Shown piece after piece: positions 5,641 through 7,295 of a DNA stretch of 20,267 nucleotides. Source of the stretch: a virus. How positions within the stretch are numbered: the first letter of the stretch is position 1; every line of letters starts with the position of its first letter. The stretch is from IMG/VR virus record IMGVR_UViG_3300020172_000234, positions 1 through 20,267 of that record, one strand, 5' to 3'. The position numbers were made by a program, and so were the translations under genes. Below the pieces are notes generated by a model. The model ran no database searches, was not told the DNA's origin, and worked only from the letters and a program-made list of their open reading frames with translations.

Positions 5641-5898
5641 CTATCCTAACATTTTTCTTAATGTTTCGTTTAAAACTGACATTTCATCTTGCTTATAAAT
5701 TGCCCAATTACGTTTCTGACCATGCAAACCAAGAAAATTGTTTGTATGGCAATCCTTGCATAAAGGAATACATAAGTATTGGTTATGTTGGACAATGTGG
5801 TGTGCATCACTTGGGCCAGAAGCATTGCAGACCCCACAAGGCATTTCTTTAATCTTTGCCAAGTGGAGTCGTTCCCTGTTATTGGGTCTGTTGTTCAT
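5641..5898 (-). CDS. HNH-type zinc nuclease, Ref/DUF968-like
   Basis: This 85-residue protein has the zinc-finger nuclease layout CGVC (21-24), SDAHHI (30-35), IPLCKDCH (44-51) and a distal LHG (58-60). This resembles the C-terminal nuclease domain of P1 Ref, a RecA-dependent HNH endonuclease, and DUF968-type phage proteins; paired CxxC sites hold structural zinc and DAHH supplies catalytic His. It has only the nuclease core, shorter than Ref itself. The ATG at 5898 lies inside the end of the transporter gene (20-base overlap), so it is the last cistron of the dpdA operon, right before the terminator. A role in recombination, or in cutting DNA lacking the phage modification, would be inference. 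Confidence 0.78.
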   Translation of the reverse strand: MNNRPNNRERLHLAKIKEMPCGVCNASGPSDAHHIVQHNQYLCIPLCKDCHTNNFLGLHGQKRNWAIYKQDEMSVLNETLRKMLG

Positions 5899-6364
5899 TT
5901 TGAAACTTTAGTAGCAAAAATGACCATACTGCACCACCAGAAACTTTGGCAATAAACTGAAGTGCAATAATTTCTGGCATCAAAACACCAAATGCAATTG
6001 TTGGAAATAGCAAAGAATCCACGGCAGCACCAGCCGTATTTGAAACATTTGCTCGTTTAATCCATGAGCCTGTTGCTTTTACAAATACCGCCCAATCAAC
6101 TAAAGCGGCAACCAAGAACGCAACGGCAGAAGCTACTGCAATCATTCCTGCGGCAGGGTTTAGCAGATAAGTTAACCCACCAGTACCGACAATTAAGCAT
6201 CCCATTTGCCAAGTTTTTAGGCGAACATGAAGCCAATCTCTCAATGTCAAATCAAGTCCGATTAGGAAAAAGGCATTTATTGGGCTAATCGATGGGCCAA
6301 AGGTTGCCACCAAAAGGTTTGCCAAGGTCATTGCCACAGCATAAATAATTAAAGCAAAAATCAT
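5879..6364 (-). CDS. yhhQ: VUT/YhhQ-family queuosine-precursor transporter
   Basis: Vut_1/YhhQ proteins are inner-membrane importers of the 7-deazaguanine precursors preQ0 and preQ1. This 161-residue protein has about five or six hydrophobic segments. It carries NLLVATFGPSISPINAFFLIG (16-36) and DLTLRDWLH (38-46), and ends with SNTAGAAVDSLLFPTIAFG (108-126), matching the family's conserved loops. The ATG at 6364 is chosen because it forms an ATGA overlap with the dpdA stop; upstream in-frame codons to 6403 lie inside dpdA. The length is shorter than E. coli YhhQ (about 220 residues), as in other phage versions I recall. Coupling to dpdA indicates supply of the modified base from the medium or host rather than de novo synthesis, since no queC/queD/queE/folE genes are visible. 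Confidence 0.85.
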   Translation of the reverse strand: MIFALIIYAVAMTLANLLVATFGPSISPINAFFLIGLDLTLRDWLHVRLKTWQMGCLIVGTGGLTYLLNPAAGMIAVASAVAFLVAALVDWAVFVKATGSWIKRANVSNTAGAAVDSLLFPTIAFGVLMPEIIALQFIAKVSGGAVWSFLLLKFQNEQQTQ

Positions 6365-7101
6365 AAAAGTGTTTCCTGTTCCATTGGTTGATAAAAGTTC
6401 CATCTGGATGGGGCATTAAAGGCTTCTATCCTAGAACGCATGATTTGCGCCCTTGCTTCCTTGGTAGGCGGCAAATAATTTCCATGCTTCCAATGCACAT
6501 CAATGCCTACATTCCTACCAATATTGGTGCTATCGGCTGATGAAAATGGTAGCTTGGTAAAGATTGCAGGGTCTAACATCCTCAAACCATGAAGTTTGCA
6601 AGCAGGTCTTCCCATGTCGTCACAAATAACCCTCATTGCCTGACCAATTTTTACCCACCATTGAGATGTTCCAACTGTAGAAAACTCTCCAGAACTTCCA
6701 ATGCAGACTCGAACATAGGTGTTTGCCAGTTGCTCTAGTCTTTCAAGAGATTCGTGCATATGCCAAACTGGTGCGCCAAACCATGTCGGCAATGGGCAAT
6801 CTCTTAACAAAGCATCGTTGTCAGCTTCTGTTCCATCAATCACATCAGGAATTACTGCAAAGTCGCAAGATGGAACTTTCTTTAGGTTTAACGCCCAATC
6901 GTAGAAAGGCTGCCAATTAAGAATTGGATTACCTTGTTTCCAAGCAGAAAAAGCCCCATTATCTATGGCAAATGATTGACAAACTTCTATTGCTACAGAC
7001 AACTGGTCAGAATGAGCAAATGAAACAAACGCATGACCACTTTCAATTGCTTTAACCGCTACTGTAGCTGGTGTTATTGGAAGTCCGTGATAGTGAATCA
7101 T
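6361..7101 (-). CDS. dpdA: DpdA-like DNA 7-deazaguanine transglycosylase (TGT superfamily)
   Basis: DpdA proteins are relatives of tRNA-guanine transglycosylase that exchange guanine in DNA for a 7-deazaguanine such as preQ0. This 246-residue protein has FAIDNGAFSAW (44-54), equivalent to the DSGGF substrate-binding motif of TGT. FAVIPDVIDG (81-90) and IGSSGEFSTVG (134-144) follow. KLHGLRML (169-176) and SSADSTN (187-193) come next, with D190 at the likely nucleophile position seen as SADS in DpdA proteins. The CxCxxC zinc motif of tRNA-specific TGTs is absent, and the protein is shorter than bacterial TGT (about 370). It shares ATGA overlaps with genes on both sides (7098-7101 and 6361-6364). 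Enzyme identity is inferred from motifs and from the neighbouring transporter; the exact base made is unknown. Confidence 0.8.
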   Translation of the reverse strand: MIHYHGLPITPATVAVKAIESGHAFVSFAHSDQLSVAIEVCQSFAIDNGAFSAWKQGNPILNWQPFYDWALNLKKVPSCDFAVIPDVIDGTEADNDALLRDCPLPTWFGAPVWHMHESLERLEQLANTYVRVCIGSSGEFSTVGTSQWWVKIGQAMRVICDDMGRPACKLHGLRMLDPAIFTKLPFSSADSTNIGRNVGIDVHWKHGNYLPPTKEARAQIMRSRIEAFNAPSRWNFYQPMEQETLL

Positions 7102-7295
7102 GCTTCTCTTACATAAACACCAAAACTAGCAGAAGTATCACCAAATGGTAATTGCTCTATCTTTTGAGCAATACGCTCACGCTCTTGTTTAGCAACTAGA
7201 TAGGCAAAGCGTTCAAGCATCAATTGACACTTATCAACTTCGCCATCATAGAAACCAACTTCTAGGGCTATGCGGATAACTTCTTCTCTAGTCAT
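7098..7295 (-). CDS. Conserved small phage protein of unknown function (65 aa)
   Basis: It begins MTREEVIRIALEVGFYDGEV and continues through LERFAYLVAKQERERIAQKI (28-47). Short proteins with the layout TREE.IR.A.E.GF followed by LERFA.LVA..ERE are frequent in phage early regions; I know no function for them. It is probably all helical. The stop overlaps the dpdA start (ATGA), so translation of dpdA is probably coupled to it. Its own start lies within the end of the 28-aa membrane peptide gene. A helper role for DpdA is possible only by position. Confidence 0.75.
   Translation of the reverse strand: MTREEVIRIALEVGFYDGEVDKCQLMLERFAYLVAKQERERIAQKIEQLPFGDTSASFGVYVREA

Follow-up and report, generated by a model that had tools for sequence, protein, structure and literature searches.

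The window analyzed here is a 20,267-bp linear virus record (IMGVR_UViG_3300020172_000234, positions 1-20,267). It carries terminase, replication, Erf-like annealing and lysis genes, and is a fragment, so that the absence of a gene from the window alone is little proof. On its minus strand we identified a gene for a short DpdA-like member of the TGT superfamily overlapping one for a VUT/YhhQ-like membrane protein, in the following arrangement (with the supporting evidence in brackets):

7098..7295, minus strand: 65-aa ORF upstream of dpdA, ATGA-joined to the dpdA start at 7098-7101 (sequence)
6361..7101, minus strand: short DpdA/TGT-superfamily protein, 246 aa (phrog_887, AlphaFold2 model, dN/dS)
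6961..6963, minus strand: D47 codon, predicted general-base Asp in IDNGAF, corresponding to TGT 'DSGGF' and 9g D72 (alignment)
6589..6591, minus strand: H171 codon, equivalent of 9g DpdA His196 (alignment, 9g KVHGF)
6532..6534, minus strand: D190 codon, predicted nucleophile Asp in SSADST, corresponding to 9g D215 in 'CDSSS' (alignment)
6361..6364, minus strand: ATGA stop/start overlap of dpdA and the VUT gene, with probable translational coupling (sequence; swap point of the partner gene in relatives)
5879..6364, minus strand: VUT/YhhQ-like six-helix membrane protein, 161 aa (PF02592, phrog_4899, predicted helices, dN/dS)
5641..5898, minus strand: 85-aa HNH-like ORF, phrog_1588, downstream and overlapping the end of the VUT gene (PHROG match)

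Both ORFs of the pair lie at the coordinates given for them in a preliminary description of this DNA, and the ATGA junction agrees with it too. The longest VUT ORF extends to 6403, which would result in a 43-nt overlap with dpdA, but this start was rejected in light of close relatives that swap in a different gene exactly at the ATGA at 6364. As the change of partner gene, in the relatives whose junctions were inspected, falls precisely at the corresponding ATGA, sequence comparison indicates that the true start of the VUT gene is almost certainly at 6364, giving the protein of 161 aa. The 65-aa ORF at 7098-7295, which returned no significant family match in Pfam, PHROG or NCBIfam, probably shares a transcription unit with dpdA, and the HNH-like ORF at 5641-5898 probably stands outside the pathway. 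Elsewhere in the window, between a small ORF upstream of the large terminase and a 745-aa protein, lies a nuclease-like ORF (2141-2542) related to phrog_22377 'restriction endonuclease II' and the homing endonuclease family phrog_314.

The 246-aa enzyme matches phrog_887, annotated 'queuine tRNA-ribosyltransferase' (E=2.3e-67), and recovered zero matches in Pfam or NCBIfam. Its IDNGAF and SSADST motifs are exact and the CxCxxC site is absent. Neither of the features of the bacterial tRNA-guanine transglycosylases, namely a PF01702 match and the CxCxxC zinc site, is found in it, and it displays the TGT-superfamily barrel of 9g-type DpdA; the protein is a barrel only, with neither the zinc-binding CxCxxC part nor an extra RNA-binding domain. 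Aligning 29 relatives, with identities as low as 34%, revealed conservation of H5, G6, S27, D47, A50, P85, D86, G90, P111, V112, H114, G135, H171, L173, P185, D190 and S191. Across about 314 aligned homologues, D47, D86, H114, H171 and D190 are invariant wherever the residue is present, with D47 retained in 314/314, D190 in 315/315 and H171 in 316/316. In a confident AlphaFold2 model (pLDDT 91, pTM 0.89) the conserved residues sit at, or just past, the strand ends. Of the viral structures compared with this model, 28 match at E<=1e-3, and those that carry a name are mostly queuine tRNA-ribosyltransferases. Against the PDB, the fold search alone is not decisive, as it recovered mostly generic TIM barrels ranking beside arcTGT; among the listed PDB matches the best query TM-score, 0.57, belongs to the archaeosine tRNA-guanine transglycosylase 1j2b. 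Sequence searches of solved structures with the enzyme and its family profile recovered no match, and hhalign comparison with host TGTs was not significant (probability 0.5%).

The preliminary description had staked its assignment on a predicted TGT barrel with D47 and D190, and the model together with its named viral matches bears this out. Membership in the DpdA family likewise stands, given that phrog_887 is shared with the 9g DpdA and that both Asp motifs and His196 align. The suggestion that the short form may define a subgroup of its own finds no support: a length of about 225-275 aa is normal in the family, and a 2021 paper had already clustered such short proteins as DpdA/TGT_1. Matches to the window enzyme were found in 127 of 50,697 phage records.

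The partner protein matches the Pfam Vut_1 domain (PF02592; E=1.6e-9, 38.7 bits against a cut-off of 27.2) and phrog_4899 (E=9.8e-36), and its model contains six long predicted helices (pLDDT 90). Among solved folds the nearest is that of an ECF S-component, at a TM-score of 0.62 but with E=0.26. Although E. coli YhhQ is recovered by an iterated VUT profile (E=6.6e-15), the protein scores 20.9 bits against a cut-off of 252 for the NCBIfam YhhQ equivalog (PRK11212). By these sequence relationships it belongs to the VUT family, and is more safely described as a VUT relative than as an assured YhhQ orthologue.

We observed that the two genes are linked well beyond the window. Among the 80 IMG/VR loci with the closest enzymes, 71 possess a VUT gene, directly adjoining in 52 and separated by a small gene in 19, and in nine none was found. 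A scan of IMG/VR seeded with the VUT protein recovered the enzyme in 71 of 73 new loci, the remaining two ending at a contig edge; the enzyme- and VUT-seeded sets share many contigs and are not independent. A further scan with the VUT protein of phage ECO111 5-P found the enzyme in 8/8 loci, mostly in the reverse gene order, such that both orders occur; one seeded with the protein of Tunavirus LHE71 recovered no IMG/VR relatives. The pair is present in nine distinct isolated phages (AB3P2, PEAT2, Tbat1_6, ECO111 5-P, the Opt-719 type, RCIP0319, Lg3, LHE71 and Phc), and also in Vibrio phage PS25B.1, where the annotation of the VUT protein reads 'putative preQ0 transporter'. A quick tree of 65 enzymes, on which some of the 'none' labels may reflect contig ends, requires 14 changes in VUT presence, with at least 11 gains or losses forced by well-supported branches. 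Both genes are under strong purifying selection, with dN/dS of 0.05 for dpdA (78 pairs) and 0.083 for the VUT gene (140 pairs), at dS of about 0.8-0.9; this, together with the retention of the pair in 71 of the 80 closest loci, argues that the association is not due to chance. As the genes are found paired across many unrelated phages, they very probably work together.

Viewed from the transporter, the association is nearly complete: the short phage VUT gene adjoins a short dpdA in practically all contigs that allow a test, one lambdoid group (mEp021) excepted. VUT proteins in the absence of a phrog_887 enzyme are seen in the mEp021 type and in MagusPhagus. The mEp021-type homologue adjoins a cytosine methyltransferase gene (phrog_757; L190:4956-6223), and a hidden DpdA beside it was rejected, there being no phrog_887 enzyme in that genome. 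Viewed from the enzyme, VUT is frequently absent, as in 79 of 80 SPN3UB-like loci and 23 of 26 genome loci carrying the enzyme, and a 2019 survey had found YhhQ to be uncorrelated with any phage group (PMC6884629).

The preliminary description had also noted the lack of precursor synthesis genes, and this holds in the window for queC, folE and queD, as well as for queF. Our searches covered QueC, FolE, QueD/PTPS and QueF. QueC and FolE were detected neither in the window nor in another 28 phage records, among which the protein of Caulobacter phage DMCA is the sole PTPS; queC, folE and queD were likewise not found in longer relatives carrying the pair, nor was QueF in the 16 records searched for it. 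On the bacterial side, 22 of 24 genomes holding relatives of the enzyme show a QueC match over the cut-off (that in G020 consisting of weak fragments), G019 lacks a full QueC and G011 lacks any. Since most hosts possess QueC, preQ0 could be supplied by the host, and the VUT protein would boost the supply rather than replace it. The idea that VUT genes are carried where hosts cannot synthesize preQ0 found no support: most hosts, including the VUT-carrying L092 and L097, have QueC. The sole fit, an actinobacterial MAG (L110) with VUT and without a full QueC, is a single metagenome bin and proves nothing.

Other genes also associate with the short dpdA. A QueD/PTPS gene, matching at the Pfam cut-off, directly adjoins it in Caulobacter phage DMCA, and others do so in three MAG contigs (L091, L103 and L112); genes of this kind beside short DpdA lie at L112:1451-1855, L103:8735-9106, L091:7675-7986 and L209:4705-5001. 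A scan seeded with the L112 protein recovered no IMG/VR relatives. Such neighbors provide a VUT-independent link between the enzyme family and the 7-deazaguanine pathway. The second associate is a small protein of about 81 aa, phrog_37496 (for example L007:3826-4068, L095:7759-8004 and L113:7750-7995), which adjoins the enzyme in 53/53 loci possessing both, either upstream or downstream depending on the locus. It lies beside the enzyme, by coordinates, in all four phage records containing it, and a search seeded with it found the enzyme at <=300 bp in 80/80 loci; the window has no copy. We consider this protein a candidate accessory subunit. Taken together, the QueD and phrog_37496 linkages connect the enzyme to the pathway without reliance on annotation. 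Three elements are new here, with prior notice of the pairing being possible: the near-obligate pairing of short VUT and short DpdA, QueD as an alternative partner, and the small protein linked to the enzyme.

Two further neighborhoods deserve mention. In Pantoea phage AH07 a gene for a 440-aa ParB-HTH protein is ATGA-overlapped with the short dpdA (L087:1682-3004); bacterial deazaguanine modification of DNA also employs a ParB-like partner, DpdB. At L221:1015-3341, the genome of Achromobacter aestuarii, which carries the DpdA-VUT pair (L097), additionally codes for a bacterial DpdA-like protein of 431 aa with a weak TGT match, preceded by a 344-aa gene that by eye resembles DpdB, with queC nearby.

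We propose that the genes for the VUT protein and the short DpdA are coupled in translation and make up a module by which phage DNA is modified with a 7-deazaguanine that the host makes or scavenges. The VUT protein would import the precursor base, preQ0 or preQ1, and thereby raise its supply; the short DpdA would cleave selected guanines at the glycosidic bond, using D190 as the predicted nucleophile and D47 as the general base, and insert the precursor. The modification would be sparse and site-limited rather than genome-wide. Precursor import with insertion into phage DNA had been put forward in the preliminary description, and the recurrent linkage lends it strong support, with preQ0/preQ1 as the cargo and DNA as the substrate being the parts that we infer. 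We regard it as the best explanation of the pair and, on balance, a probable one. Weighing against it are the frequent absence of VUT, the VUT proteins that occur without a phrog_887 enzyme, the low identity to YhhQ (25%), the replacement of D86 by Ser111 in the 9g DpdA, and the commonness of preQ0 synthesis in hosts, which makes import not obviously needed. Further, modification has been measured only in relatives from the other half of the DpdA tree, and at tiny levels. More tentatively, the short DpdAs might form a modular system that carries out sparse site-specific marking with one or two phage-encoded helpers, be it VUT, QueD or phrog_37496 as a new accessory subunit; the last may contribute, for example, to substrate choice or to the conversion of preQ0 to dADG.

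The measurements in relatives bear directly on what such a module might achieve. Salmonella phage 7-11 has 50 dADG per million nucleotides, about 0.02% of G, and Pantoea phage MED16 has 354, about 0.13% of G (PMC6884629, PMC8306585). Most of the enzymes tested cut MED16 DNA, among them several whose GA or GGC sites are modified by another DpdA; MboI and Bsu15I, two enzymes that are sensitive to Dam methylation, did not cut it (PMC6884629, PMC8306585). Given these traces and the cutting of MED16 DNA, broad restriction resistance, which the preliminary description had expected the phage to gain, is not anticipated. Instead, the pair may bring about sparse marking, or an increase in marking through better supply.

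The same low levels of DNA modification (PMC8306585, PMC6884629) would also suit a miniature RNA transglycosylase that, during infection, alters the queuosine or preQ1 of tRNA from host or phage, with the VUT protein supplying the base, as would the annotation of the enzyme as a queuine tRNA-ribosyltransferase and the top query TM-score (0.57) of arcTGT 1j2b among the listed PDB matches. We nevertheless consider this unlikely: the enzyme is barrel-only, lacking the CxCxxC zinc part and an RNA-binding domain, it has phrog_887 and His196 in common with the DNA-acting 9g DpdA, and host genomes already possess their own Tgt. A slightly smaller chance attaches to a DNA-modifying enzyme whose VUT neighbor imports an unrelated vitamin-like molecule, the linkage being operon hitchhiking. 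Such hitchhiking poorly explains an association that recurs in unrelated phages, in both orders and through many gains and losses, and a neighborhood that QueD occupies in other loci, even though the VUT protein shares no more than 25% identity with E. coli YhhQ, an ECF S-component at E=0.26 ranks first among its structure matches, and the mEp021-type VUT gene adjoins a cytosine methyltransferase gene instead. Finally, it is highly improbable that the pair, rather than modifying DNA for the phage itself, shifts the host pool of preQ0-type bases to blunt 7-deazaguanine-dependent defences such as Qat and type IV CBASS, for although QueC-family enzymes are parts of such defences (PMC13329287, PMC13279940), import and QueD would raise the pool and not drain it, and nothing in the analysis ties the pair to hosts having either system.

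The largest DpdA group of the 2019 survey comprised 76 phages with DpdA and without synthesis genes, and its modification status was difficult to predict (PMC6884629). The VUT pairing, the recurrent QueD and the strictly linked small protein give this group a concrete supply logic, which can be tested in isolated phages such as AB3P2, PEAT2, LHE71, Lg3 and PS25B.1.

Of the characterized enzymes, the DpdA of Enterobacteria phage 9g, a preQ0/dG+ DNA transglycosylase, has been shown by experiment to insert preQ0 into DNA (PMC6884629). Like the window enzyme it falls in phrog_887 (E=2e-98), and it aligns with the family profile at an hhalign probability of 95.8% (E=8e-9): D72, His141, His196 and D215 of 9g correspond to D47, H114, H171 and D190, and its LDSGAF motif to IDNGAF. 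His196 is a DpdA feature that DpdA2 lacks (PMC6884629). The two proteins differ in length (317 against 246 aa), share 24% identity and have distinct neighbors, with folE, queD, an aminotransferase/queC-type gene and queE accompanying the 9g gene where the window has a transporter. The invariant D86 of the window family is Ser111 in 9g, and hence the base pocket may differ. Also comparable are the DpdAs of Salmonella phage 7-11, SEN1 and Pantoea phage MED16 (cluster DpdA/TGT_1), which are short singletons in phages without preQ0 synthesis genes; the 7-11 protein is in phrog_887, and the SEN1 protein is 41.6% identical to the window enzyme and 55% to that of MED16 (PMC8306585). Proteins of this type belong to the other half of the DpdA tree from the window enzyme, and those of 7-11 and SEN1 branch from within the VUT-paired proteins but, unlike in the window, have no VUT gene adjoining.

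For the transporter, the natural reference is E. coli YhhQ, with which the window protein has in common the PF02592 domain, the iterated-profile match and six predicted helices, while differing in length (221 against 161 aa) and sharing 25% identity. YhhQ has been shown elsewhere to be involved in preQ0 transport, being a preQ0/preQ1 transporter. The YhhQ of Providencia phages PSTCR4 and PSTCR7 is full-length, about 55% identical to that of E. coli, and adjoins QueE rather than a short DpdA; nevertheless, these phages provide an instance of a phage-borne preQ0 transporter in a 7-deazaguanine context, as we propose for the window.
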